Shown here: in pieces, positions 25,745-62,189 of the stretch
Numbering within the stretch: the stretch's first letter is position 1
Layout of the letters: each line of letters begins with the position of its first letter
From: a virus
Virus record (IMG/VR): IMGVR_UViG_3300008108_000057
Coordinates: 57,540-121,539 of that record
Strand: one strand, 5' to 3'
Length of the DNA: 64,000 bases
Position numbers and translations under genes: made by a program
The notes under the pieces: model-generated
Database searches by the model: none
Told to the model about the DNA's origin: nothing
What the model saw: the letters and a program-made list of their open reading frames with translations, nothing else

Positions 25745-26355
25745 GTGATATTATTAGAATTAGCACAGATGATCCATCTGGCACAAAAGTACAACAGGTT
25801 AAAGTATTAGAACTTGTACCAGAAAAATTTTCTATTCTAGATGAAGTAATGCCTGAATTTGATTTCAGTAATCCACCTACTGATCCAGTATTTCTCGCAT
25901 CACAATTGGTAGAAACTTGCATTTATCATAAAGGTCTTGGTCTATCTGCAAATCAATGTGGATTAAGATATAGAGTATTTGTGATGGGTGCAGGTAATGA
26001 TTATGTTGCACATTTCAATCCAAAAATTGTTAGTGTGTCTGAAGAAAAAGCACATATGGAAGAAGGATGCTTATCTTATCCATTGTTGTTCATTCACATT
26101 ACTAGACCAGAAAGTATTACTGTAGAATATCAAGACTTCAATGGTGAAAAAAAGACAGCAACATATTCGGGTATAACTGCTAGATGTTTTCAACATGAAC
26201 TTGACCACATGAATGGTGTTCGTTATACGAGTAAAGCAAAACCATTAGCACTACAAACAGCTAAGAAGAAAAAAGACAAACTAATTCACCGTTATAGGAA
26301 AGCAAATGAAAGATTGGCAGCACGGGTACGAACTGGATTACCTCAAATCGGTTGA
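25741..26355 (+). CDS. def: Peptide deformylase
   Basis: 204 residues. The three deformylase motifs are present: GLGLSANQ (65-72), EEGCLSYP (metal ligand Cys110) and QHELDHMNG (His152, Glu153, His156). The enzyme removes the formyl group from nascent proteins. Phage versions are common in marine T4-like phages and probably keep up with late protein synthesis. The C-terminal 45 residues form a Lys-rich helix; short phage deformylases often lack this, so the tail is a mild oddity. Confidence 0.92.
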   Translation: MSDIIRISTDDPSGTKVQQVKVLELVPEKFSILDEVMPEFDFSNPPTDPVFLASQLVETCIYHKGLGLSANQCGLRYRVFVMGAGNDYVAHFNPKIVSVSEEKAHMEEGCLSYPLLFIHITRPESITVEYQDFNGEKKTATYSGITARCFQHELDHMNGVRYTSKAKPLALQTAKKKKDKLIHRYRKANERLAARVRTGLPQIG

Positions 26356-27409
26356 ATCTCTTTACGCAGCATACAACAAGTTTGCAGATTCACCTTTTGC
26401 TGAATACAAGAAAAATAACATAGCAGAAGATTTACACAAAGGACATTTGCACATACATGCAGATGGCTCTTACGTTCAAACTAAAGTAAGTAAATCTTCT
26501 CCTATTACTATGTACCAAAACATAACGATTGGAACCAAAACACCAGGTGATTGTGTTATTACCAAGCTTCGTGGTACTGACGATTACATTGAAGATGTTT
26601 GTAAACAAGCAGAAGGTAATACTTGGTTATATGTTTGGGCTGAAGATAAAACTACCAGAATGATTGCACAAAACTACTTTGATTATGTCGGTAGTAAAAT
26701 TACAACATTTGGAGAAATCTATGGTATCTATTTTAAACAAGGACTAATACCAACAACATTTCCATTTGTTGACCCAGTAGAAAAGATTGCCATAAAACAG
26801 TTGCGTGTTCCTGTTAATTCTGATATTATAGAAAAAATTGCAGCTAGGTTGGAAAACCTAAATATTAAATTCCAAAATCATTATAGCAACTACAACAAGA
26901 AAAAATCTTGGTCTGCAATATCTCTGCGTGGCTATACACCAGATATTATGCGTATTGAAAAACCAGTTGAGATGAGTAAGAAATGGAAAGAGGAACACAA
27001 AGATGAAGAATTTTACTTACAAGATACATTCCTTCGCCAGGAGTTTCCAGAAGTTGAGAAACTCCTTAGTTTCTTGGGCGATGCGGAATTACATCGTATT
27101 AGATTTATGCGCCTTACTCCTGGCGGTGGTGAGCTTACCCGCCATACAGACCAAGTGGATCCAGATTCTGGTCTTAATATCAATAATTTGTCTAGGTTGC
27201 ATTTCCCTATCAGAACTAATTCAAAAGTTAAATTCGGGGTCTGGGAACCAACAGGAAATAAAAAAGAAGTAAACATGAGAGTTGGTGAGTGTTGGGTACT
27301 TGATACGAGAAAACCACACACGGTCATCAACGAAGGCGATGAAGATAGAATACATCTAGTTGTTGATGTAGTGACAGACAAAAATCTTAAAGAGACAATA
27401 TTATCATGA
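26306..27409 (+). CDS. Two-domain protein with aspartyl/asparaginyl beta-hydroxylase-like 2OG oxygenase domain
   Basis: 367 residues. The C-terminal half has a double-stranded beta-helix oxygenase pattern: RHTDQVD (His280, Asp282), a LHFPIRTNSKVKFG core and KPHTVINEGDEDRIHLV (distal His and 2OG-binding Arg). This is typical of the Asp/Asn beta-hydroxylase family (PF05118). The N-terminal 160 residues are unassigned, with a faint GNAT-like ending. The start lies 50 nt inside the deformylase gene. The 3' end overlaps the DNA methyltransferase by 4 nt, suggesting the two act together. Target unknown: a protein side chain or a modified base. Confidence 0.75.
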   Translation: MKDWQHGYELDYLKSVESLYAAYNKFADSPFAEYKKNNIAEDLHKGHLHIHADGSYVQTKVSKSSPITMYQNITIGTKTPGDCVITKLRGTDDYIEDVCKQAEGNTWLYVWAEDKTTRMIAQNYFDYVGSKITTFGEIYGIYFKQGLIPTTFPFVDPVEKIAIKQLRVPVNSDIIEKIAARLENLNIKFQNHYSNYNKKKSWSAISLRGYTPDIMRIEKPVEMSKKWKEEHKDEEFYLQDTFLRQEFPEVEKLLSFLGDAELHRIRFMRLTPGGGELTRHTDQVDPDSGLNINNLSRLHFPIRTNSKVKFGVWEPTGNKKEVNMRVGECWVLDTRKPHTVINEGDEDRIHLVVDVVTDKNLKETILS

Positions 27410-37911: not shown

Positions 37912-37991
37912 AATAAAAGTATCAAAGGCTATATACAGAATACATTATTCGTACTTGAATTATTATCAAATTTTTTAGTGAAGGAATCCAA

Positions 37992-39236
37992 ATGAAAACT
38001 CGTGGATTAAATTATGGGGCCAGTGTTGGTCTTGAAGCATATGATATAGACTGGAACTCTAAAGAAGAAATTGATGAATTAGGTAGACTTTGTGCTAGTC
38101 AATGTATTGTTTTTGTCAATGAAAGAATACCTACTGAACAAGTATATAACATTATGACTCAATGGGGCGACTCAAGCCGAGCCCTTATACATGAATATGT
38201 TATTCAACGTAAAATTTCAGGTAGACATTGGAGAGAGATATTACTTAATTTAGGATATATCGCTAAGGATGCAGGGAAGGACATCAGTCCGGCAGTATCT
38301 ATGGTAAGTTATAAAAAGGATGATGATGGTCGTCCTCGAGGCATTTTCAGTAACGGTGAATTAGATTGGCATAGTGACCAATGTGCATTTGATGATGCAC
38401 AACGTATTATTGGTTTACAAAGTATAAGTGACACGGTAAACAGTCAAACAACATTTTTATGTACACATGATGCTTACGAATCGCTGAGTTCGGACATACG
38501 TAGCATGGTGAAGGAATTGATTGTAAAACACAAATGGGTTGATGGAGTCATGGCTCCGGGGTTGAACTATCTTCAAACCATGCTACTAAAATACAACATG
38601 GTGCCAATAGATGGAATGGAAACTCATTTGTATAGAGAAACCGCTACCGGGCGTCCTGGTATAAAATTTCCATCACATACATTTAATGGATTTGTTGGCA
38701 TGTCGTTAGAAGAAAGCCATAGAGTCATGAATGAGTTAAAGAAAGAAGTTTATCAAGACAAATACGTATATACTCAGAACTGGCAAGATGGTCAAATTGT
38801 TTTTATGGATCAAGAAATTACATTACATGCTAGACCAACTAATGTTAGTGATGGTGATAAAAGAACTATGGCAAGAGTAATTACTTATTTAAATCATCTA
38901 TATCCAGAAAATAAATTAGCTACTCATGTAAGATTTAAAGGAAAAATGATTAGTCATGATGATTTTGCCAAACTAGTGGATGCTGATAGATCATACAAAT
39001 TTGAACAAGAACAAAAACTCAAAGAGATAATTTCAAAACAGTTCAAGGTAGTCGATAATAGACTTGATACCTGTACTAATTTAATTTCGGAGCTTGACGC
39101 CGACAGTCTTGATTTACTAGAATTAGTGCTTTCCATTGAAAGACAATTCAAAATTGAGATCGACGAATATGATACAAAAGATGTACGCACATTCGGAAAA
39201 ATTTTAGAATTGATACAGTCTAAAACTTCAAATTAA
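37992..39236 (+). CDS. TauD/TfdA-type 2OG dioxygenase fused to an acyl carrier protein domain
   Basis: 414 residues with AAGGAA before the ATG. Residues 1-330 form a TauD-like oxygenase: iron motif WHSD (His127, Asp129), distal His279 and the arginine region DKRTMARV (291-295). Residues about 340-410 are an acyl carrier protein: LDADSLDLLELV holds the phosphopantetheine serine Ser372, followed by the helix ERQFKIEI. Such fusions suggest hydroxylation or desaturation of a carrier-bound acyl or aminoacyl group. The gene stands alone between tRNA-Tyr and tRNA-Ala. No synthetase or transferase partner is adjacent, so host enzymes would have to load it. Confidence 0.85.
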   Translation: MKTRGLNYGASVGLEAYDIDWNSKEEIDELGRLCASQCIVFVNERIPTEQVYNIMTQWGDSSRALIHEYVIQRKISGRHWREILLNLGYIAKDAGKDISPAVSMVSYKKDDDGRPRGIFSNGELDWHSDQCAFDDAQRIIGLQSISDTVNSQTTFLCTHDAYESLSSDIRSMVKELIVKHKWVDGVMAPGLNYLQTMLLKYNMVPIDGMETHLYRETATGRPGIKFPSHTFNGFVGMSLEESHRVMNELKKEVYQDKYVYTQNWQDGQIVFMDQEITLHARPTNVSDGDKRTMARVITYLNHLYPENKLATHVRFKGKMISHDDFAKLVDADRSYKFEQEQKLKEIISKQFKVVDNRLDTCTNLISELDADSLDLLELVLSIERQFKIEIDEYDTKDVRTFGKILELIQSKTSN

Positions 39237-39243
39237 CATACTA

Positions 39244-39317
39244 GGGGGATTAGTTAAATGGGATAACATCGGCTTTGCAAGCCGAGATTAACAGTTCGAT
39301 TCTGTTATCCTCCACCA
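39244..39317 (+). tRNA. tRNA-Ala(TGC)
   Basis: Anticodon loop TTTGCAA in TCGGC/GCCGA, T arm AACAG-TTCGATT-CTGTT, encoded CCA. It starts 7 nt after the preceding gene's stop. Confidence 0.93.
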
Positions 39318-39348: not shown

Positions 39349-40092
39349 ATGAAGAAATTAGTTTTTACTTTAGCTTTACTACTATCAACCAATGTATCAT
39401 CCGCAACAACCTTTGTTTATAATGTAACAAAAGATGAAGTAGTACATGAATACGCATCCGAAAGAGTAAGACCAATTGCAAGTGTTACAAAATTGATGAC
39501 TGCGATTGTTGTTATTGAAAGTGGTGCATCATTGAATGGAAAAGTTTCTTACAGAGGTTTCTTAGGTAAGAAAGAATTGAGTAGAGAAGAATTATTAAAG
39601 TTGCTATTGGTTAAAAGTGACAATCAAGCCGCTGAGGCTTTAGCAAAAGCATACTCAGGTGGTAGAAGTGGTTTCATTGCTAACATGAATCACAAAGCAG
39701 AACAGTTAGGAATGGTTCATACTTCCTATGAAGATCCTTCTGGCATAGGAAGAAAGAATATAAGTACCGCAAGAGACATATCAATATTGTTAAATTATTC
39801 ACACAATTTTGATACAATGAAAAATCTTGCAGCACTTGAAAATGTGAAATTTACGAAACAATCAAAGAGAAAAAAGAAACAATCTTTGATGGTAGTTAAT
39901 AATACAAATTACAATTTACTGAAAGAATACAAAGAGATTGAGATATCTAAAACTGGCTTTACTAATGCTGCTGGCAAATGTCTTGCAATGCTCTTGACAA
40001 AAAATGGTGAAAAATATACAATAGTAATTCTTGGTGAAAGAAATACTAGAGATGTACAAAGAGTAGGTAGAAAGATTATTGAAACATTATAG
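39349..40092 (+). CDS. Secreted S11 peptidase (D-Ala-D-Ala carboxypeptidase family)
   Basis: 247 residues. A cleavable signal peptide (KKLVFTLALLLSTNVSSA) is followed by the three penicillin-binding active-site motifs: SVTK (Ser45, Lys48), SDN (90-92) and KTG (201-203). The family trims peptidoglycan stem peptides in the periplasm. At this length it lacks the PBP5 C-terminal domain and membrane anchor. It may remodel the wall or act in lysis or superinfection exclusion. The stop's last base is the first base of tRNA-Thr. Confidence 0.88.
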   Translation: MKKLVFTLALLLSTNVSSATTFVYNVTKDEVVHEYASERVRPIASVTKLMTAIVVIESGASLNGKVSYRGFLGKKELSREELLKLLLVKSDNQAAEALAKAYSGGRSGFIANMNHKAEQLGMVHTSYEDPSGIGRKNISTARDISILLNYSHNFDTMKNLAALENVKFTKQSKRKKKQSLMVVNNTNYNLLKEYKEIEISKTGFTNAAGKCLAMLLTKNGEKYTIVILGERNTRDVQRVGRKIIETL

Positions 40093-40256: not shown

Positions 40257-41198
40257 ATGATAAAAGTTCCTATTTACAATTCTTCTGGAGTTGCAATTGA
40301 TGAATTGATCATCAATGATGACGTTGAGTACATTCCAGATAGTAGAGTATATAAAGGCAAAAATTGCTATTACAAAGGCATAGGAGTACCATATTTTTTT
40401 CATGCTATTTTAGATGTAAATAACGATGAATATGAGAATATTGGAAAACATCCCGTTTTCTATTCGGGATATTATGTTGTAAAAAAATGTTTTAAAAATA
40501 AAACTGGAATATTTCAAGAAAGATTTCAACCATTTTTTTCTGACTTCATAGGAACTTGCGGTGTTAAAGAAGGAACCGTAGTACTAAATTCAATGTCGTT
40601 TGAGAAATCTTCTGTTGAGATTTTAGATTGTATAAACTACGATAAAGAGAATGACCAGTATTATTATTTGATGAATTATAATTGCGATAGAAAATCGTAT
40701 TTAACTGACGAAGAAGATCCAAAAAAACTAAGAGAACTTTTAGATTACATGATAATTAGTGATTGGAATTTCCTTTGGGATAAAGTTGCTATTAAAGATA
40801 TAAGTAATAAAGGAACAGTAAGTGATGTTGCAGACCTGTTTGTTTCGAATACACTTTCTCACAAAATAGGAACAGTATATTCTGTATTGTATAGTCTTGC
40901 GAAAAAAGATTCTGGAAAATATTTTAAGTTTTTGAATGTGAATAATTTGCAGCACATTGACGATCGGTCTTTTGTTTTCAATGCTATTGAAATCTTACGG
41001 GTGAACAATGTTGATGTGAGTGAATTATTTAAATATGACACAATTAATCAAGTCTACAAAAACATAGTAATAAATTATCTTGTAACTGGAAAAAATTGTG
41101 CATATTGTGCATGTGATCTATACAAAGATCAAGGTGAAGGAATAAAAGATCAATATGTTGAATTAACTAAAAACCAATTAACGGATATTATAATATAA
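40257..41198 (+). CDS. Hypothetical protein between tRNA-Gly and tRNA-Pro
   Basis: 313 residues, starting 13 nt after tRNA-Gly with no clear ribosome site, which suggests weak translation or a different start. Rich in Asp, Asn, Tyr and Lys, and more AT-rich than its neighbours. Cys residues cluster at GKNCAYCACDLY near residue 283. No signal peptide, membrane helix or known domain is recognised. Its base composition suggests a recent arrival in the array. Confidence 0.7.
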   Translation: MIKVPIYNSSGVAIDELIINDDVEYIPDSRVYKGKNCYYKGIGVPYFFHAILDVNNDEYENIGKHPVFYSGYYVVKKCFKNKTGIFQERFQPFFSDFIGTCGVKEGTVVLNSMSFEKSSVEILDCINYDKENDQYYYLMNYNCDRKSYLTDEEDPKKLRELLDYMIISDWNFLWDKVAIKDISNKGTVSDVADLFVSNTLSHKIGTVYSVLYSLAKKDSGKYFKFLNVNNLQHIDDRSFVFNAIEILRVNNVDVSELFKYDTINQVYKNIVINYLVTGKNCAYCACDLYKDQGEGIKDQYVELTKNQLTDIII

Positions 41199-41291: not shown

Positions 41292-41888
41292 ATGAATTTA
41301 AAAAACTTTATTAAAGAAGTTCCAAACACTCTTTCTAATGAAATGTGTGATTACTTCATTGATTTCTATGATACACATATGGAATCTGCTCAAAGATTTG
41401 AAGGTAGAAATCGGAGATGGCAGCCAACATTTAACCAAATCGTGTATACAGACTTTTTCTACAATACACCATATTGGAAACCAAATGAAAGAATAACCAA
41501 TGAAGTTGCTAGAGATATTAATGATCAAGCATACAAATATGTAAATGAACTTGGATTAGAAAAAACGTTTCCACCAAATCCTCTTAATGAAAAATTAAGA
41601 GTTAAAAAATATTTACTCAATGGAGAAGATGAATTTCCTTTGCATATTGATGCTTACTCTCAAGAAGCAGGATCAAGATTTTTATCCATGTTTGTATATT
41701 TGAACGACATAGAAGAAGGCGGCCATACAGCATTTCCAAGTTTAGGTGTTTCAATAAAACCAGAGAAAGGTAAGTTAGTAATATTTCCTTCTAATTGGAT
41801 GTTTCCTCATATCGGAGAAAAACCAATTTCAGGAGAAAAATATTTGCTGTCAACGTACTTACATTATTCTCCGTATTCAGAATCTTAG
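41292..41888 (+). CDS. Prolyl-4-hydroxylase-like 2OG-Fe(II) oxygenase
   Basis: 198 residues. LHIDAYS (His118, Asp120), FPHIGEKPISGEK (His173, Lys183) and the VYLNDIEEGGHTAFP core are the P4H-type oxygenase motifs. Marine T4-like phages frequently carry this family; proposed targets include protein prolines and nucleic acid, none established here. It stands alone between tRNA-Pro and tRNA-Met, 14 nt after the former. Confidence 0.88.
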   Translation: MNLKNFIKEVPNTLSNEMCDYFIDFYDTHMESAQRFEGRNRRWQPTFNQIVYTDFFYNTPYWKPNERITNEVARDINDQAYKYVNELGLEKTFPPNPLNEKLRVKKYLLNGEDEFPLHIDAYSQEAGSRFLSMFVYLNDIEEGGHTAFPSLGVSIKPEKGKLVIFPSNWMFPHIGEKPISGEKYLLSTYLHYSPYSES

Positions 41889-53509: not shown

Positions 53510-54220
53510 ATGAGTGCAGTGGTAATTATTCCGACTACTGGAGCTGATACAGTAAAACGCTCCATTGAAAGTGTTTTATCCCAAACCTATCCGACAACTT
53601 GTTATGTTGTCTGTGATGGTAATCAATTCAGAGGTAAAGTCAAAGTTATTGTTGACAACTACCTATCAAATAAAAATATTAAACTCTGTTTCTTGCCAGA
53701 CAACGTAGGTGCTAATGGATTCTATGGCCATAGAGTTTATGCTGCGTTCTCCCATTTAGTTAATGAAGATTACGTTATGTTTCTGGATCAAGATTGTTGG
53801 TTTGAAGATAATCATGTTCAGTCCTGCGTGAACACAATTCAATCTAAAGAATTAGATTGGACGTATTCTTTGAGAAAAATTACCGACAAAGATGGAAACT
53901 TCTATTGTAATGATGACTGTGAAAGTCTTGGTAAATGGATAGCATGGACAAATACACACCATATTGACACAAATAGTTATTGCGTTCGTCGTGAAATCCT
54001 GATAAGATTAGCATCTACGTGGCATGGTGGGTGGGGTCAAGATAGAGTGTTCTTCAATACAATAGCAACCAACTTTCAGAAGTGGGATTGTACAAGAAGA
54101 TACACAGTCAACTACAGAGTTGATGGTAATGCAGGTTCTGTGACAAAAGGATTCTTTGATCAAGGTAATAAAGTGATGCATGATTTTTATAAAGGAAAAC
54201 TTCCTTGGCAAGACAATTGA
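53510..54220 (+). CDS. Glycosyltransferase family 2
   Basis: 236 residues. AVVIIPTTGADTVKRSIESVLSQ is the GT2 nucleotide-binding start, and YVMFLDQDCWFED carries the DxD-type metal site (DQD). GGWGQDRVFF supplies the likely acceptor/catalytic acidic residue. It opens an eleven-gene cassette of sugar genes with short overlaps. The cassette probably builds or alters a surface glycan, by inference. Confidence 0.88.
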   Translation: MSAVVIIPTTGADTVKRSIESVLSQTYPTTCYVVCDGNQFRGKVKVIVDNYLSNKNIKLCFLPDNVGANGFYGHRVYAAFSHLVNEDYVMFLDQDCWFEDNHVQSCVNTIQSKELDWTYSLRKITDKDGNFYCNDDCESLGKWIAWTNTHHIDTNSYCVRREILIRLASTWHGGWGQDRVFFNTIATNFQKWDCTRRYTVNYRVDGNAGSVTKGFFDQGNKVMHDFYKGKLPWQDN

Positions 54221-54996
54221 TAGTAGGTAAAACTAGTTTTATTGGTAATGAACTAGCTAAACTGAAAAATTTTGATATTGTAGCATACAAAGATATTCAT
54301 CATGTTGACTTTTCTCAATATGATGGCGTTATCAATTGTGCATTGAATCCTGTGTTTAAAACTCAAACATATGATGAAAAAATTGATGTTGATTATGAGA
54401 TAGCAAAACTTGCGTATGAAAATAATTGCCATTATGCAATGATTTCAACCAGAAAGGTTTATGGATCATCATCAGAACTGAAAACATATACAGAAGAAAG
54501 TCCTACAAATCCATTTGACTTCTATAGTGAAAACAAATTGATTTGTGAGAATAAAATTCTAAATGAGTTTGGGGATAAAGCAGTCATAGTCAGAGGATCT
54601 AATTTGTTTGGATTTGAATTGGGTAGGCAATCTTTCATGGGCTTCTGTATGGATCAATTGAAGCACAGTGAAAAGATTGTATTTTCAATTAGCGAAAAAA
54701 CAAAAAGAGACTTTATTGATGTGACTACATCAGCATGTATGTTAGATAAAATTTTAAGAAGAAAATTGACAGGAATATATAATTTAAGTTCTAACTATGG
54801 TCTTGAAATAGGCAAAGTAGCAAAACATTTAATTCGTGGTTATGGTAAAGGTGAGTTTTTATGTACCAGTGATGTTGTCAAAGAGCAGTTCATCATAGAC
54901 AACACAAAACTAATCAAACAGCTCAAACTTATTTCTCACCCATTTTATATCACAGGTATCATTGAAAATTTAGGAGAAGAATTGTGCAAGATATGA
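54205..54996 (+). CDS. NAD-dependent epimerase/dehydratase (SDR)
   Basis: 263 residues from a TTG start at 54205 with AAAGGA 9 nt upstream; a TTG at 54217 is an alternative. GKTSFIGNELA is the Rossmann-type dinucleotide loop, with an unusual Lys-Thr in place of Gly-rich GxxGxxG, and FYSENK provides the YxxxK catalytic pair with ISTRKVYGS before it. Probably a nucleotide-sugar epimerase or reductase. It overlaps the GT2 gene by 16 nt. Confidence 0.82.
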   Translation: MARQLIVGKTSFIGNELAKLKNFDIVAYKDIHHVDFSQYDGVINCALNPVFKTQTYDEKIDVDYEIAKLAYENNCHYAMISTRKVYGSSSELKTYTEESPTNPFDFYSENKLICENKILNEFGDKAVIVRGSNLFGFELGRQSFMGFCMDQLKHSEKIVFSISEKTKRDFIDVTTSACMLDKILRRKLTGIYNLSSNYGLEIGKVAKHLIRGYGKGEFLCTSDVVKEQFIIDNTKLIKQLKLISHPFYITGIIENLGEELCKI

Positions 54997-55832
54997 TCAT
55001 TAGTGCCGTGTCGGAATACAAGTACGACAGAATGAAACATTGGGTGAACTCAATCAAGAAGTGCGGATTTAAAGGTAGAATCGCAGTCGTTGCATTTAAT
55101 ATCACAGACAATACAATTAGGAAACTAAAATATGAAGGTGTTGAGGTTTACTTAACAACAAATCAAAGAAACGAAAAAGATGATGGATACTTGTACGCAA
55201 ACGGAATAACTTATCACGTACCAATGCTTAGACATTATTTTTATTGGGCAATATTGTCTCAAATGAAAGACATTCGTTATGTCATTTCTACAGATATATC
55301 TGATGTTGTATTTCAACTAGATCCTTCTGTGTGGTTAGAAAATCATCTCGGCGATAAAAAATTAAATTATGGATGTGAAGGTCTATTGTACAAAGACGAA
55401 ACATGGGGAAATCAAAACATGATGGAATGTTTTCCTCAACTATATCATCACATGAAGGACAGACCGATCTACAATGCCGGATCAATGGCTGGCGAGTTTG
55501 AGATGTTTAAAAACTTTTCATTAGCTGTTTCTTTGGCTATTAACAATATTCCACATCCAACTCCAGATCAAGCTGGTGTTAATGCTATGTTATCAATCGA
55601 ACCATATCACTCACTTACCAAGTTCAATGACCACGATACAAATTGGGCATGTGAATGTGGGACTACTGTAGACCCAAATAAAATAGAACGATTCAGACCC
55701 CATCTATTGAGTCCTGAGCCTATCTTTGATGGGGAGTATGTGTATACAAGTAAAGGCGAGAAATATGTAATGGTACACCAATATAATAGAGTGCCAGAAT
55801 GGAAAGAAAAGATTGAGAAAAAATATGGATAA
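54984..55832 (+). CDS. Glycosyltransferase-like protein
   Basis: 282 residues from GTG at 54984, supported by GGAG 7 nt upstream; an ATG at 54993 is the alternative. ISTDISDVVFQLDP has the D-x-S-D form of a GT-A metal site, PTPDQAGVNAML is a typical later acidic block, and VMVHQYNR a final His motif. These fit nucleotide-diphospho-sugar transferases acting on surface glycans. No family was named with confidence. Confidence 0.72.
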   Translation: MQDMIISAVSEYKYDRMKHWVNSIKKCGFKGRIAVVAFNITDNTIRKLKYEGVEVYLTTNQRNEKDDGYLYANGITYHVPMLRHYFYWAILSQMKDIRYVISTDISDVVFQLDPSVWLENHLGDKKLNYGCEGLLYKDETWGNQNMMECFPQLYHHMKDRPIYNAGSMAGEFEMFKNFSLAVSLAINNIPHPTPDQAGVNAMLSIEPYHSLTKFNDHDTNWACECGTTVDPNKIERFRPHLLSPEPIFDGEYVYTSKGEKYVMVHQYNRVPEWKEKIEKKYG

Positions 55833-56649
55833 TGATATTTCAGTAGTTACAGCATTCTATGATATTGGTAGAGGTAATCTACCAAAAGTAAAACATGGTA
55901 GAGAGTTACCATTCTATCAGCATAGAAGTGTAAATCAATATTTTGATTTTTTCAGTAACCTAGCTAAACTTCAAAACGAAATGGTGATTTACACAACACC
56001 CGATTTTGAAGATAAAGTTAAAACTATCAGAAAAAATGTTGGGTTGGAAGAACTGACGAAAGTTGTTATTGCAGATTCATACCTACCCGAAAGATATGAA
56101 CTAATTAAACCTATGGTTCAAAAGGTAATGGATGATCCCGCATATTATGGTAAAGTGGTGAATCCTCAACTGATTGAATATTGGCATGCCGATTATGTTC
56201 TTGTCAATATTTTTAAAGCCTGGTATGTTACTGATGCAATTGAGAAAGGTCTGATAAGTAATGATCTTACTGCATGGATAGATTTTGGTTATGTTCGTGA
56301 TGATAAAACAATACCAGCATCAAATCGTTGGACTTATAATTTTGATCGTGAGAAAATTCATTTCTTCAATCAATATACTATACACAAAGAAAGACCGATT
56401 GACAATATAATCTATACAGGTGATGTTTACATTCAAGGATGTCATATTGTAGCAGGAACAAAGAAATGGGAACTTCTTAAGCAATTGGTTCTCAAAAATC
56501 TAGAAGTTCTATTACAAAATAATTTAATTGATGATGATCAAACATTATTGCTCATGTCGTATCTGACAAGCCCACAAGATTTTCAGTTACATATTGCTGA
56601 TCCAAACGATTGGTTTAGAATCTTTAGAATATTTAATGATCAAATATGA
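55825..56649 (+). CDS. HtrL/YibB-type protein
   Basis: 274 residues from ATG at 55825; an upstream in-frame start at 55813 lies within the previous gene. SVVTAFYDIGRGNLP and the MVIYTTPDFEDKVK pattern match the HtrL/YibB family (PF09612), seen in lipopolysaccharide regions and thought to be glycosyltransferases. AWIDFGYVRD holds the probable D-x-G metal region. It overlaps the previous gene by 8 nt. Confidence 0.82.
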   Translation: MDNDISVVTAFYDIGRGNLPKVKHGRELPFYQHRSVNQYFDFFSNLAKLQNEMVIYTTPDFEDKVKTIRKNVGLEELTKVVIADSYLPERYELIKPMVQKVMDDPAYYGKVVNPQLIEYWHADYVLVNIFKAWYVTDAIEKGLISNDLTAWIDFGYVRDDKTIPASNRWTYNFDREKIHFFNQYTIHKERPIDNIIYTGDVYIQGCHIVAGTKKWELLKQLVLKNLEVLLQNNLIDDDQTLLLMSYLTSPQDFQLHIADPNDWFRIFRIFNDQI

Positions 56650-57386
56650 TTAAAATATATTCGCCAAGAATTCATAATCTGGGAGATTTTATGCATTGTC
56701 TCCCAGCATTATCGGGTCTACATAAAAAACTAAAGTATAAATTCTCATTTGTCATTTGTGATAGGCTAGAAAGATTTGTTGGTATAAAAGAATTATTGAT
56801 GCAGCAAGAGATGTTTGCTGAAGTAAAATTCATGCATGAAGAAACTATGATTGCTGAAAGATATATTCTATTGGATGATATTGGTGAGGAGAAACAACAT
56901 GGTAACAGTCCAATAGCATGTCATAGATTTTATAATTTCATCAGAGATAATTACAAAATAGATTTTGATATTGATGATGATTTTGAATTAAAAGTGCCAA
57001 AACTAGATATAGACTTTCAAACAGACAAGTTAATCATTGGTGATAGATGGTCATCTAGAGATGCACCAGATGTTGATACTAGAAGATATTCTAATCTTAT
57101 AGAAAGTGCAGAAATTGTACCAAAAGAAAAAGCATTATATCTTGACTATAAAAAAGATTTAATATATAATTGTTCTCTAATTAAGCATAATCCAAATCCA
57201 TTTATTACCACATTTACTGGAATAGGTATTGTTGCCGATTTGATGAAAAAAGATTGTTACATTTTGTGGGATGAAGATATACGAAACTGGCAAGGTTGGG
57301 GTGTAGAACAAGATTATAAACTACACTACTATCAAGATAGAAAATCAAAACTTGTTTATATAAGAGATTTTAAGTATGATAATTAA
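56646..57386 (+). CDS. GT9/heptosyltransferase-like protein (first of two)
   Basis: 246 residues. IYSPRIHNLGDFMHCLPALSGLHKKL is the start of GT-B enzymes such as heptosyltransferases (GD-x-x-x-x-LP). The C-terminal sugar-nucleotide site is less clear than in the next gene, so it may be catalytically weak. It overlaps the neighbouring genes by 4 and 11 nt. Confidence 0.65.
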   Translation: MIKIYSPRIHNLGDFMHCLPALSGLHKKLKYKFSFVICDRLERFVGIKELLMQQEMFAEVKFMHEETMIAERYILLDDIGEEKQHGNSPIACHRFYNFIRDNYKIDFDIDDDFELKVPKLDIDFQTDKLIIGDRWSSRDAPDVDTRRYSNLIESAEIVPKEKALYLDYKKDLIYNCSLIKHNPNPFITTFTGIGIVADLMKKDCYILWDEDIRNWQGWGVEQDYKLHYYQDRKSKLVYIRDFKYDN

Positions 57387-58080
57387 TGTTCCTTTAGGCG
57401 CATTTGGTGGCCCTCTCAGAAATGGTGATATTGTTGCTGTAGCAAATGTCGTTGAATATCTTAGAAAAGTAGAAGATAAAAATATAAAATTCCATCTTTT
57501 ACCTAACTCTGTGTCATCAGCAGATTACTGTCAGAAATTTTTAAAGTTTATGTTAGAGAATACAGATTATTTCTCTGATAACGCAGGTGAAAAAGAACTT
57601 TCATGGAAAAATATTAATCTTTGGGATTTTAGAGGATTATCTGGTGATTTAGTGAGAATCCCAAATAATAAAAAGCAAGAAAAGAAGATAGTTATCTGTC
57701 CTTTATTTAATGCCCAATACAACACATACAGAAATTGGCCAAAACATATTTTTGAAAAAATGCTTGAGAGATTTAAGAGCGAAGCATATTCGGATTATAG
57801 AAAAATCATTTGTACAGAAGAAACTATAGGCCACATTGATGGGTGGGAAGAATCTACAGATTTTCTAGAAAATTTAGATCACATAATGACAAGTGAAATA
57901 TTCTTTGGGGGTGATACTGGAACTAGTCACTTTGTTGGTGCATTAGAAAGTGGACCAGGTGAAATATTATATTTCTATTCTGGTCATGGTCTTATTCACA
58001 CAACTCCTTTCTACTCTACCTTAGGAAAAGGAAGAGTCATTCAGTACTGGCATAACTTTGAACAAGCAACTTGGAGTTAA
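57376..58080 (+). CDS. GT9/heptosyltransferase-like protein (second of two)
   Basis: 234 residues. LGAFGGPLRNGDIVAVANVVEYL is the N-terminal half pattern, VICPLFNAQYNTYRNWPKHIFEKML resembles the GT-B C-terminal half start, and FFGGDTGTSHFVGAL corresponds to the G-x-D-S-G-x-x-H acceptor motif of heptosyltransferases. It probably adds a sugar to a lipopolysaccharide-like acceptor. Confidence 0.72.
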   Translation: MIINVPLGAFGGPLRNGDIVAVANVVEYLRKVEDKNIKFHLLPNSVSSADYCQKFLKFMLENTDYFSDNAGEKELSWKNINLWDFRGLSGDLVRIPNNKKQEKKIVICPLFNAQYNTYRNWPKHIFEKMLERFKSEAYSDYRKIICTEETIGHIDGWEESTDFLENLDHIMTSEIFFGGDTGTSHFVGALESGPGEILYFYSGHGLIHTTPFYSTLGKGRVIQYWHNFEQATWS

Positions 58081-58081
58081 T

Positions 58082-58789
58082 ATGAGAATTAAATTATTCA
58101 GTCACATGGTTGACATTGGTTGTGGAAAAGATATTACAGTAGAACAAACAGAGCTACTAGAAAAAACAGGTTTGCTTGATGCTGTTGAACACGCATATTT
58201 CTTTGCACACTTTGATAGAGATAACTATTCCTGGTTAGAAGAAAGATGGAAAGACAGAAAGAACGTTGATATTCTACATTATAATCAAGATTATCAGCCT
58301 TGGTATGAGGCAACTTCAGTAAACTATTTGCAAGAATATTGTCATGAAAACGATGAAGAATTTTATGTTTGCTTCATGACACACAAAGGAGCAAGTCATG
58401 GTCCTGGTGGTCATCAAAACTGGCGAAGATATATGCAATACTGGAATATAGAGAAATGGAAAGACTGTGTTGCAAAGCTTGATGAAGGTTATGACATGTG
58501 TGGTGCTGCATTTTTAAATAACCCGCCACATCCTTTTTATGCGGGTAACTTTTTCTGGGCAAAAGCATCATATCTAAGGAAGTGTCGTAGACTAAAAACT
58601 CCACCAGAAAATATGTTCAAGCCACAATTTGAAGAACAACCACACCATCGTTTTGATCTTGAATGTTGGCATGGTAGTGGTGCACCTAATGCATATGATA
58701 TGCATCCTGGGGAAACAAATCGATGGTATTTACCTCCAGAAACATACCGAGATGATATGGAAGAAACCTTTACTTACAGAACAGTATGA
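58082..58789 (+). CDS. Glycosyltransferase-like protein with YAGNFFWAKASYL motif
   Basis: 235 residues from ATG at 58082 (1 nt after the preceding stop). PFYAGNFFWAKASYLRKC is a block I associate with a family of bacterial and phage sugar transferases, and FYVCFMTHKGASH is a nearby strand. The C-terminus is His/Trp-rich (CWHGSGAPNAYDMHPGETNRWY). Substrate unknown. It overlaps the next gene by 4 nt. Confidence 0.68.
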   Translation: MRIKLFSHMVDIGCGKDITVEQTELLEKTGLLDAVEHAYFFAHFDRDNYSWLEERWKDRKNVDILHYNQDYQPWYEATSVNYLQEYCHENDEEFYVCFMTHKGASHGPGGHQNWRRYMQYWNIEKWKDCVAKLDEGYDMCGAAFLNNPPHPFYAGNFFWAKASYLRKCRRLKTPPENMFKPQFEEQPHHRFDLECWHGSGAPNAYDMHPGETNRWYLPPETYRDDMEETFTYRTV

Positions 58790-59427
58790 ACGATACGGCA
58801 ATCATAGTTACCTCTTATTGTGGAGGTAATTTTCAAGAAGAAAAAAGAAAAATGACTAAGACAATCTGTAAAATGTTGTCTGAAAAAGGTCATTATGTTA
58901 TTCTTACTACACACTCACCTGTAGACGTTGATACACAAAATTATTGTGATGTATTTGTTTATGATAAAGACAATAGATTTTCTTTTGATGACGTTCCACA
59001 AAGAACGACAAATCATGGTGTCGCAGAGTTGACACTTATGAGAAATGCAGTAAAATTAATACCTGAAAATTTCAAATATCTACTGAAGATGGCATATGAT
59101 AATAAGCCAGATTTAGATTATCATGATATCATACAGAAGTGTAAAGAAACTAATAAGAAAGCGGTCACAGCAAAATGGGGTAACGATATTACGTTAGGAA
59201 CTCAGATGTATTTTTCTGAGATTGCATTCTTTAGAGAAACATTATCAATGAATGAATTATGGCGATGCGAAAAAGACTTAGAATATGTTTGGTATGATTC
59301 TGTAAAAGATAAAAACTTATTAGATCAAGTGCATGTACTAGACCTATACAGAAACTTCTTTGGCCATGATGTTCTTCAATATGCTCATGCAGCAGGAACT
59401 TTTGTAGATCACTATCCATATGATTAG
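58786..59427 (+). CDS. Glycosyltransferase-like hypothetical protein
   Basis: 213 residues. AIIVTSYCGG starts a Rossmann-like strand and LLKMAYDNKPDLD may hold a divergent metal site. ITLGTQMYFSEIAFFRETL is typical of the middle of transferases in this cassette. Identity is inferred from context and pattern. Confidence 0.6.
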   Translation: MNDTAIIVTSYCGGNFQEEKRKMTKTICKMLSEKGHYVILTTHSPVDVDTQNYCDVFVYDKDNRFSFDDVPQRTTNHGVAELTLMRNAVKLIPENFKYLLKMAYDNKPDLDYHDIIQKCKETNKKAVTAKWGNDITLGTQMYFSEIAFFRETLSMNELWRCEKDLEYVWYDSVKDKNLLDQVHVLDLYRNFFGHDVLQYAHAAGTFVDHYPYD

Positions 59428-60091
59428 TTTAACTTGTATTGATGCCTTAGATTACGAACCAACAATTCGTGCAATACGAAGCACGATCAAGTGTATTCCT
59501 ATAAGCAGAGTATATTGGTTTAGTGATGTTAATCTAATCTCGGATGAGTTTCCTGTAACTTGGATAAAAATAAACAAATTCAAACGATATACTGATGAAT
59601 ATAATTTTATAACCTTGAAATTAGTACCTCATGTTGTTACTGAACCATACAACATAATAATTCATGCTGATGGATTTGCTGTAAATCGGAGTGCATGGGA
59701 TGAACAATTCTTAAATTATGATTATATTGGCGCCAGATGGAATAATGGCATGGTAGGTAATGGTGGATTCTGTCTGAGAAGTAGAAAACTATACGATGCT
59801 TTACTGAATCTAGATGTTAAGTACAAAACATCAGATTATTCACAAGAAGTAATAGATAATTCGGAGCACTATGTGTTTGATGCATATGGTGATAAAGTGA
59901 TTCCTGAAGATAATATTATCTGCAAGATACATAGAAAAGAACTTGAAGAAAATTATGGTATTAAATTTGCTGAAGGTGACATTGTAGACAAATTTAGCAT
60001 AGAACATAATACGTCATCTTCTTGGTTAGGTAGAAGTTTAGGATTTCATGGTAAACATGGAATAGCAAAACATTATGGAGTTGAGTTATGA
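59420..60091 (+). CDS. DUF5672-type glycosyltransferase-like protein
   Basis: 223 residues. FLNYDYIGARWNN, MVGNGGFCLRSRKLYDALL and VIPEDNIICKIHRKEL are the blocks of the DUF5672 family, which has a GT-A-like fold and is usually found among surface-sugar genes. HADGFAVN contains the D-x-x pattern. It overlaps the previous gene by 8 nt. Confidence 0.8.
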   Translation: MISLTCIDALDYEPTIRAIRSTIKCIPISRVYWFSDVNLISDEFPVTWIKINKFKRYTDEYNFITLKLVPHVVTEPYNIIIHADGFAVNRSAWDEQFLNYDYIGARWNNGMVGNGGFCLRSRKLYDALLNLDVKYKTSDYSQEVIDNSEHYVFDAYGDKVIPEDNIICKIHRKELEENYGIKFAEGDIVDKFSIEHNTSSSWLGRSLGFHGKHGIAKHYGVEL

Positions 60092-60105
60092 TATGGAGAA
60101 ATTAA

Positions 60106-61386
60106 ATGACACCAAATGAAATGATTGAAGCACTATCAAAATCAGTGCAACCAAAGTATGTGAAAAATTATGATAATTATCAAGAAGGCCAGTTTGTGCA
60201 GTATTCTGGTCAACTTTGGGATCATAACGAAATACGAGTAGCACTAGACGCACTTCTAAATGGTGCATGGATTGTTTCTGGAGAAAAAGTATCTGAATTT
60301 CAAGATGCTTTTAGTAAAAGATTCAATGTCAAATATTCCCATATGGTGAACTCAGGTAGTTCAGCAAATCTTGTGATGGTGACTGCTGCTAAAAAATATT
60401 ACAAGTGGCAAGACGGCGATGAGATTATTGTTTCTCCTGTCGGGTTCCCAACAACTATTGCACCTATTATTCAAAATGGAATGAAACCAGTTTTCATTGA
60501 CATTGAACTTGAAACATTAAATTTTGATGTTAGTAAAATTGAAGAAAAGATCAATTCAAAAACAAGAGCAATTTTTGTATCTCCTGTTTTGGGTAATCCT
60601 CCAAACATGGATGTGATTGTTGACATATGCAATAAACATGGTCTTACTTTACTTGGTGATAACTGTGATTCGCTAGGCTCACTTTGGAATGGAAGATTAA
60701 TTACAGACTACTATGATACATGGACAACATCATTCTATCCTGCTCACCATATTAGCACAGGTGAAGGTGGTATGGTATGTTCAGATAACGAAGATTTCAT
60801 CAAAGAAGCAAGAAGCATTTCATGGTGGGGTAGAGATTGCTACTGTGTAGGATCAAACAATCTATTAGAATGTGGCACTTGTGGTAAACGATTTGACAAT
60901 TGGCTTGAGAATTACGATGGTATTATTGATCACAAATATCTGTTTACAAACATCGGATATAATCTAAAACCTCTTGATCTTCAAGGTGCTATTGGTCTTG
61001 AGCAATTGAAAAAGTTTGATATGCTTGAAAGTAAACGCAGAGAATATAAAGAAACTATTCAAAAATACATTGAAGATAATATCCCTGGTGCAAGAGTTAT
61101 TAATGCTACAGAAAACTCAGATCCTTCTTGGTTTGGTGTTCCCATCTATTGCGAATCACAAGAGATGAAAGAGTTGCTAGTATCTCATTTTGAATCCAAT
61201 AAAGTTCAAACTAGAAACTACTTTAGCGGGAATATTCTTTTACATCCAGGATACAAACATCTAGATGATTATAAGAATTATCCCAATTCGAATCTAGCTT
61301 TAAGTAATGTATTCTTTATCGGTTGCTCTCCTCTATACAACGAAAAGATTTTGAACTATATTGAGAAGGTATGTCAAAAATGGTAA
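60106..61386 (+). CDS. rfbH: RfbH-type CDP-4-dehydro-6-deoxyglucose 3-dehydrase
   Basis: 426 residues. It is of the DegT/DnrJ aminotransferase fold, but FYPAHHISTGEGG has His (His214/215) where ordinary aminotransferases have the PLP-binding Lys, the mark of the RfbH/E1 dehydrase. The cysteines C187, C245, C247 and C256 (WWGRDCYC, then ECGTC) sit with spacing close to the C-x57-C-x1-C-x7-C iron-sulphur motif I recall for E1. It would remove the C3 hydroxyl of a CDP-sugar on the way to 3,6-dideoxyhexoses. Partner reductase E3 is not seen in the window. Two SDR genes in the cassette could finish the sugar. Confidence 0.9.
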   Translation: MTPNEMIEALSKSVQPKYVKNYDNYQEGQFVQYSGQLWDHNEIRVALDALLNGAWIVSGEKVSEFQDAFSKRFNVKYSHMVNSGSSANLVMVTAAKKYYKWQDGDEIIVSPVGFPTTIAPIIQNGMKPVFIDIELETLNFDVSKIEEKINSKTRAIFVSPVLGNPPNMDVIVDICNKHGLTLLGDNCDSLGSLWNGRLITDYYDTWTTSFYPAHHISTGEGGMVCSDNEDFIKEARSISWWGRDCYCVGSNNLLECGTCGKRFDNWLENYDGIIDHKYLFTNIGYNLKPLDLQGAIGLEQLKKFDMLESKRREYKETIQKYIEDNIPGARVINATENSDPSWFGVPIYCESQEMKELLVSHFESNKVQTRNYFSGNILLHPGYKHLDDYKNYPNSNLALSNVFFIGCSPLYNEKILNYIEKVCQKW

Positions 61387-62189
61387 ACGTTCTTGGTGCT
61401 GGATTTGTTGGTGGTAGATATGCTGAACTAACTAAAAATGTAATTGTCAATGATAGAAATGATTATGAAGTGAAATCAAATGAAGTTCTTTATTTCATCT
61501 CTACAATTGACAATTATAATGTATTCACAAATCCATATATTGACATTGAAACAAATCTAACAACATTGATAAAGACTTTAGAATCATGTAAAGACAAAGA
61601 TGTTACTTTCAATTTCATTAGTTCTTGGTTTGTATATGGAAATGTAGATTTGCCGGCAAAAGAATCTGCTTATTGTGATCCGAAAGGATTCTACAGCATA
61701 ACCAAACGAACAGCAGAGCAACTTCTCATTTCATATTGTGAAACGTTCAACATTAAGTACAGGATTCTCAGACTAGCAAACGTTTTAGGAGAATCTGACC
61801 ACAAGGTATCTAAAAAGAAGAATGCTCTGCAATACATGATCAATGAACTGAAAGCAGGAAACACAGTTTCGTTGTATGATGGTGGTGAAGCATATAGAGA
61901 CTATATCTATGTTGACGATGCGGTTCGTGCTATTAATCTAGTATTGCAAAAAGGAAAAGTCAACGAAATCTATAATATTGGTAATGGCGTTCCAGTCAGG
62001 CTGGTAGATGCTATTAACTATGCTGCCACAAAGTTGAGTTCATCATCTAATGTGGAAACTATTGAAACCGCAGCATTTCATAAGGTGGTACAAACCACAA
62101 ACATGGTCCTTGATATTACCAAAATTAAGAGTCTGGGCTATGTACAAACTAAGTCAGTTTATGATATTATGGACAAATTAATCGTATAA
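61371..62189 (+). CDS. NAD-dependent epimerase/dehydratase (SDR)
   Basis: 272 residues. VNVLGAGFVGGRYAEL is a clean Rossmann loop, FYSITKRTAEQLL the YxxxK catalytic segment, RDYIYVDDAVRAINLVL the typical sugar-epimerase block and IYNIGNGVPVRLVD the C-terminal motif. ATG at 61371 is favoured, though 61380 is also possible. It overlaps rfbH by 16 nt and is likely to act on its product, for instance as a 4-reductase or epimerase. Confidence 0.88.
   Translation: MSKMVNVLGAGFVGGRYAELTKNVIVNDRNDYEVKSNEVLYFISTIDNYNVFTNPYIDIETNLTTLIKTLESCKDKDVTFNFISSWFVYGNVDLPAKESAYCDPKGFYSITKRTAEQLLISYCETFNIKYRILRLANVLGESDHKVSKKKNALQYMINELKAGNTVSLYDGGEAYRDYIYVDDAVRAINLVLQKGKVNEIYNIGNGVPVRLVDAINYAATKLSSSSNVETIETAAFHKVVQTTNMVLDITKIKSLGYVQTKSVYDIMDKLIV

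Follow-up and report, generated by a model that had tools for sequence, protein, structure and literature searches.

Introduction

Dioxygenases of the TauD/TfdA superfamily oxidize unactivated carbons with 2-oxoglutarate (2OG) as the co-substrate, and TauD and TfdA themselves act on free small molecules. In acyl carrier proteins (ACPs), the serine of a DSL-type motif is the substrate of phosphopantetheinyl transferases. LpxA and LpxD are enzymes that use acyl-ACP, while DltB-like genes in the Dlt pathway move carrier-bound D-alanine. The usual reading of auxiliary genes in phages is that they boost the central metabolism of the host. TauD enzymes, either free or fused, have been proposed to act on carrier-bound substrates (PMC7100376). 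Genes for a TauD homolog, an ACP, and an ACP synthase were among those found only in the cyanophages P-HM1 and P-HM2, in a listing that gave them no function (Sullivan et al, 2010; PMC3037559).

Here we analyze a phage gene in which an oxygenase of this type and an ACP are predicted to form a single protein. The gene lies in a stretch of 64,000 nucleotides (the window) that covers positions 57540-121539 of an IMG/VR record of 163,380 bases. The virus is a freshwater T4-like myovirus with a terminase whose best matches (53-55% identical) come from T4-like cyanophages.

Results

A TauD-like oxygenase and an ACP are joined in one phage gene

The coordinates and length of the 414-residue open reading frame given in a preliminary description of this DNA were reproduced (Table 1), as were H127, D129, H279, R291, R295, and S372 (in ELDADSLDLLE). 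The profile searches proposed there gave matches above the curated cut-offs for both halves of the protein: Pfam assigned residues 81-296 to PF02668 (TauD; 5.4e-18, 66.3 bits against a cut-off of 27) and residues 341-407 to PF00550 (PP-binding; 8.4e-8, 32.8 bits against a cut-off of 20.8), and the last 80 residues alone matched PF00550 at 3.2e-9. Among the PHROGs, the oxygenase matches the taurine dioxygenase phrog_24590 (3.9e-26) and the carrier domain matches the ACP phrog_5934 (4.1e-10), with ACPs also providing the best PDB sequence matches (2ehs, 1.4e-9). In an alignment of 25 phage and cellular sequences (A6), H127, D129, H279, R291, and R295 do not vary, and the two arginines probably bind 2OG, by analogy with the family. 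Ser372 aligns with the invariant serine of free phage ACPs (alignment A3).

The two domains were modelled separately because a mixed alignment of TauD and ACP sequences misaligned the ACPs; the ACP was modelled from an alignment of phage ACPs. In a full-length model, the ACP half has low confidence because the underlying alignment held no ACP rows. The AF2 model of the oxygenase, mostly of high pLDDT, has the double-stranded beta-helix fold and is matched by Foldseek to the TauD/TfdA structures 5keu/5hsx at about 1e-15, with TauD, AAD-1, and RdpA among the matches. The ACP model (pLDDT 85) contains the ACP helices, places Ser372 at the start of helix II, and superposes on solved ACPs with a TM-score of about 0.8-0.9 and an rmsd of about 1 Å. 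By sequence and predicted fold, the window protein is a member of the TauD/TfdA superfamily and is predicted to contain a true ACP domain with a four-helix bundle. Both the ACP match and the bundle, on which the preliminary description had staked its claim of a carrier-linked oxygenase in a phage, were found, and Pfam, PHROGs, and the predicted folds bear that claim out.

The fusion is known from three near-identical metagenome assemblies: this record and the contigs L001 and L002 (loci of the compared set are given as L numbers). An assembly slip or frameshift artefact was ruled out because the gene is nucleotide-identical in the two other metagenome contigs, without any difference across the three assemblies. 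Neither a profile scan nor a scan with the ACP end detected further fused copies in IMG/VR outside L001 and L002.

ARAGORN identified 25 tRNAs in the window, and the fusion gene sits inside this array, which holds many unrelated genes. The array is probably a mere insertion hotspot for the fusion, and the tRNA-Ala that follows directly is probably not its functional partner. A role in tRNA modification, considered from the position in the array, is unsupported: unrelated genes abound in the array, and most of the ACP-less relatives scanned lie on contigs without tRNAs. A role in anti-phage defence was likewise rejected, as the fusion has no PADLOC match. Other genes in the array include one for a D-Ala carboxypeptidase-like protein with a signal-peptide-like start, located between tRNAs (window 39349-40092, PF00768), and one for a second 2OG-Fe(II) oxygenase (window 41292-41888; PF13640, phrog_61). 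Downstream of the fusion, window 40257-41198 encodes an orphan protein of 313 residues. It was considered as a missing partner and rejected, since it matches nothing in Pfam and nothing significantly among the PHROGs; its sole relative in the phage collection (48% identical) is found in the tRNA array of cyanophage S-CREM1, with no annotated TauD or ACP nearby.

Table 1 Features of the fusion locus and of a possible accessory gene, in window coordinates.
Feature	Position	Strand	Evidence
RBS-like AAGGA	37981..37985	+	Sequence read, upstream of the fusion-gene ATG
TauD::ACP fusion gene, 414 aa	37992..39236	+	ORF, Pfam; nucleotide-identical in L001 and L002
Predicted Fe(II)/2-oxoglutarate oxygenase domain, residues 1-337, TauD/TfdA superfamily	37992..39002	+	PF02668, phrog_24590, AF2/Foldseek
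Predicted iron-binding motif H127-S-D129	38370..38378	+	Sequence; H and D invariant in alignment A6
Predicted iron-binding His279	38826..38828	+	Invariant in alignment A6
Arg291 to Arg295, probable 2-oxoglutarate-binding arginine(s)	38862..38876	+	Both Arg invariant in A6
Predicted acyl carrier protein domain, residues 341-407	39012..39212	+	PF00550; AF2 bundle matches solved ACPs
Ser372 codon, predicted 4'-phosphopantetheine site (DADSL)	39105..39107	+	Sequence, alignment A3, model
tRNA-Ala directly 3' of the fusion gene	39244..39317	+	ARAGORN; array context
Possible accessory, Asp/Arg hydroxylase-type 2OG oxygenase	26306..27409	+	PF05118 4.4e-14

The genome that carries the fusion

The 163-kb record contains only one PF00550 domain. 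No phosphopantetheinyl transferase (PF01648) was detected in this genome or in the records of 24 relatives, with positive controls, which supports the earlier suggestion that the protein depends on a host enzyme for its phosphopantetheine arm. A search of the 163-kb record for AMP-binding enzymes or acyl ligases (PF00501) also found none, with a positive control, and no hexapeptide (LbH) acyltransferase was detected anywhere in the genome, all of these absences referring to a record that is possibly incomplete. Since these enzymes are unrecognised in the genome, host enzymes must supply the corresponding steps. Nor were homologs of the ketosynthase, MaoC, thioesterase, desaturase, radical SAM, and SAH-hydrolase genes of the phage relatives described below found in the record. 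The preliminary description had stated that no biosynthetic genes accompany the oxygenase. This statement holds for the fusion, with none detected next to it or at any other place in the 163-kb record, but not for phage copies generally, where relatives carry acyl genes beside the oxygenase.

Genes for glycosyltransferases, epimerases, and a DegT aminotransferase lie at window 53510-62189, and heptose-type nucleotide-sugar genes lie elsewhere in the record; sugar chemistry is therefore present. The genes at window 53510-62189 and L088:1865-4759, HldE-like heptose genes among them, represent a phage sugar pathway. The possible accessory gene in Table 1 was found as a tblastn match of a neighbor in L118, and has homologs in the TauD clusters of L118 and of phage Mosig, the latter known from annotation. 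Its link to the fusion is only suggestive.

Phage relatives encode a conserved TauD-LbH-ACP operon

An oxygenase profile scan yielded 62 loci, and dozens of phage contigs carry members of the family. In seven distinct phages (L007, L014, L029, L031, L034, L050, and L111), the TauD gene is followed by a gene for an LbH acyltransferase and then by a gene for a free-standing ACP, as at L014:9159-13728, L029:10001-12022, and L111:4961-11815. In 7/7 of these phages, 689-1419 bp separate the TauD stop from the start of a downstream ACP gene on the same strand, a spacing with a naive joint chance of about 1e-11 if ACP genes were placed at random in the records, and the LbH gene is always between the two. 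TauD-LbH-ACP is a conserved phage operon. The LbH gene also follows TauD in four more phages with no ACP gene (L003, L110, L112, and L118). Against NCBIfam models, the LbH protein scores 1.1e-21 for NeuD, 1.9e-13 for LpxD, and 3.7e-8 for LpxA, all below the curated cut-offs (at best 77.4 bits against 160.8 for NeuD), which places it in neither the NeuD nor the LpxD family. The hexapeptide repeats of PF00132 score above the cut-off in L007 and L014 and slightly below it in L003, and one histidine is invariant in 7/7 aligned LbH sequences. With TauD and ACP fused and LbH undetected in its genome, the window gene is related to this operon and is not a full member of it.

For many close relatives (e.g. 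L005/L009, L012, and L038), no ACP gene was detected in the record, which for one of them is 162 kb long. Given this ACP-less majority, the oxygenase may be able to function when the phage supplies no carrier, possibly with a free molecule or host acyl-ACP as its substrate. At L005:5737-7605 and L009:10001-11869, TauD is followed by an APS-kinase-like/weak cytidylyltransferase-like protein in place of LbH and ACP. Paired copies of the oxygenase gene, adjacent or close by, occur in L006, L011-L016, L056, L057, and L059, an arrangement that suggests two successive oxidations.

The remaining neighbors of the oxygenase and LbH genes vary from phage to phage. A full-length FabF-like ketosynthase is encoded at L112:3628-4830 (-), divergent from the TauD-LbH pair; a MaoC dehydratase and a 4HBT (hotdog) thioesterase lie near the oxygenase in L018; and fatty-acid desaturases lie near the oxygenase or LbH gene in L116 and L118. 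At L118:3351-8143, genes for a desaturase-like protein, two TauD proteins, LbH, a fatty-acid desaturase, and an Asp/Arg hydroxylase stand in a row that looks like a lipid-tailoring cassette. Radical SAM genes are found near the operon or oxygenase in L014, L029, L034, and L111, and SAH-hydrolase-like genes are found nearby in L031, L034, L111, and L118. L018 also contains a tRNA with a CUA anticodon (tRNA-Pyl-like; L018:9159-9234 (-), ARAGORN), possibly a suppressor tRNA. Since the ketosynthase, dehydratase, thioesterase, and desaturases act on acyl chains, acyl chemistry is favored over aminoacyl chemistry in the phages. The preliminary description had allowed for either kind of group; the phage neighbors point to an acyl group, yet one cellular relative adjoins a nonribosomal peptide synthetase (NRPS).

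Origin of the fusion and relatives outside the operon phages

Measured by path on the TauD tree, the window protein lies closest to L029 and L031, each of which has an adjacent ACP gene. The ACP domain of the window protein likewise gives its highest scores against the ACPs of L031 (30/72 identical residues) and L029 (31/70), ahead of cellular ACPs, but neither placement has strong support, and 80 residues are too few to resolve an ACP tree. The two placements agree with a fusion that would have arisen from an operon of the L029/L031 type once the LbH gene between TauD and ACP was lost and these two genes were joined. Across the TauD tree, the presence of an ACP gene shows only moderate clustering, with 6 changes compared to 9.0 in shuffles.

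The subfamily is mostly found in phages: among 369 gammaproteobacterial and 385 alphaproteobacterial genomes, only the seed genome was recovered. In a metagenome-assembled genome (MAG) of a Cycloclasticus symbiont, an ACP gene precedes a TauD gene that carries a frameshift in this assembly, and the pair adjoins a divergent DltB-like MBOAT gene with its neighbor; a Methylomagnum plasmid encodes an ACP, TauD, a radical SAM protein, and an NRPS with an A domain in a row. The pairing of ACP and TauD genes in these two bacteria shows that it also occurs outside phages. The Asp metal ligand is apparently Asn at L090:9650-10714 of the Methylomagnum plasmid (NZ_AP019785), which reads W-H-S-N compared to W-H-S/T/C-D in phages. 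A 66% identical oxygenase in L080, a contig of a cyanobacterial (Geminocystis) MAG, may belong to the host, a provirus, or a misbinned phage. In the cultured cyanophage P-HM2, the TauD homolog (T4-GC447; PHM2_004, 26% identical over 278 residues), ACP (T4-GC457), and phosphopantetheinyl transferase (T4-GC500) are encoded at scattered positions in the genome.

Discussion

A proposed mechanism and its alternatives

The coupling of oxygenase and carrier is well supported; the substrate, product, acceptor, loading, reaction, and benefit we infer. We consider it somewhat probable that the protein oxidizes an acyl group on its own phosphopantetheine arm for later transfer. In this process, a host phosphopantetheinyl transferase would convert Ser372 to the holo form, and the arm would be loaded from the host acyl-ACP or acyl-CoA pool, most likely with a fatty or short hydroxyacyl chain. 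Using Fe(II), O2, and 2OG, the TauD domain would then oxidize the arm-bound acyl group, with hydroxylation most likely and desaturation possible, and the oxygenated group would be handed to an acyltransferase. In the relatives, the transferase would be the LbH hexapeptide enzyme encoded between TauD and ACP, probably acting on an amino sugar or some other part of the infected cell's envelope. The fusion would stand in place of the two-gene arrangement in this phage, and the transferase would be a host enzyme or an unrecognised phage enzyme. An envelope acceptor is a guess, favored by the LbH homology and the DltB-like neighbor in one bacterium.

More broadly, and as a tentative proposal that is itself rather doubtful, T4-like phages of fresh and marine waters may have an undescribed pathway in which an oxygenated acyl group on a phage ACP is passed to an envelope glycan or lipid, perhaps blocking superinfection, with the window gene as its most compact form. 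The parts of this putative pathway are TauD, ACP, and the hexapeptide acyltransferase, with a variable desaturase, ketosynthase, dehydratase, and radical SAM protein.

The TauD domain could instead oxidize a free small molecule, with the ACP as a passenger for binding or recruiting the host's acyl-ACP enzymes, which might serve, for instance, to redirect host lipid synthesis. The many relatives with no detectable ACP gene fit this idea, as do the nearest solved relatives by sequence and fold, which use free taurine and phenoxyacids. However, the ACP retains both its serine and its fold, and ACP is linked to TauD in seven phages and two bacteria besides the fusion, making a free substrate unlikely. 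If the carrier held an aminoacyl group, the protein would resemble a SyrP-type amino acid β-hydroxylase feeding a peptide-like product or a cell-wall modification. Hydroxylation of carrier-bound Asp by TauD enzymes has been proposed in siderophore pathways (PMC7100376), and the two cellular ACP-TauD pairs adjoin an NRPS with an A domain and DltB-like genes, respectively. We nonetheless find this alternative quite improbable in a genome that lacks an AMP-binding domain and in a family whose phage neighbors are ketosynthase, MaoC, thioesterase, and desaturase genes rather than amino acid enzymes.

There is also a slight chance that the fusion gene is non-functional cargo caught in the tRNA-array hotspot, given the many unrelated genes in the array and the occurrence of the fusion in three near-identical contigs only. 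Against this possibility, all catalytic residues and both predicted folds are intact, and dozens of phage contigs carry the oxygenase family, whose metal and 2OG residues are kept in 25/25 aligned sequences. Isonitrile-type chemistry, in which a ScoE/Rv0097-like TauD enzyme would oxidize a glycyl adduct of a fatty acyl chain on the ACP, seems barely conceivable. The Rv0097-Rv0101 cluster does combine an oxidase with an ACP, thioesterase, acyl-AMP ligase, and NRPS (PMC6211224), and a hotdog thioesterase adjoins the oxygenase in L018, but this genome has neither an acyl-AMP ligase nor an NRPS, and neither was recognised beside the phage operons that were read.

Comparison with known systems

Under the favored model of oxidation on the protein's own arm, these phages probably produce a carrier-bound acyl group and modify it in the course of infection. 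If this is true, the conserved oxygenase-acyltransferase-carrier operon and its fused form would represent specialised acyl chemistry of the phages' own, and would suggest a role for the cyanophage 'taurine dioxygenase' and ACP genes listed without a function since 2010. Because one protein holds both enzyme and carrier, the question can be tested directly on its arm, from which the substrate could be read by mass spectrometry. Searches of the open-access literature, which took in few subscription journals and no preprints, turned up no account of either the fusion or the TauD-LbH-ACP operon, and the operon has a real chance of being a new phage pathway.

The window protein resembles the TauD/TfdA dioxygenases (PF02668; phrog_24590 in phages) in its predicted fold, H-x-D...H facial triad, and Arg, and differs from them in its C-terminal ACP and its mostly phage subfamily. 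The SyrP-type and siderophore TauD β-hydroxylases, free or NRPS-fused, likewise work with carriers (PMC7100376). In contrast, the partner in the window protein is a type II ACP-like domain, the genome encodes no adenylation domain, and the neighbors in phages are acyl genes; with no PF00501 in the 163-kb record, it is not a SyrP-type NRPS hydroxylase. The isonitrile lipopeptide clusters Rv0097-Rv0101 and ScoA-E also pair an Fe oxidase with an ACP, along with a thioesterase as in L018. The window genome has the ACP but no AMP-binding domain and no homolog of the L018 thioesterase, and with these defining genes missing in our searches the protein is not a member of an isonitrile cluster. The LbH protein of the relatives is, like LpxA, LpxD, and NeuD, a left-handed helix acyltransferase, but falls well below their curated cut-offs. 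The cultured T4-like phages P-HM1 and P-HM2 have TauD, ACP, and phosphopantetheinyl transferase together (PMC3037559). The P-HM2 genes, however, are scattered, unfused, and listed without a function, with no LbH operon reported. Among these systems, the window protein most likely works like a carrier-tethered tailoring oxygenase.
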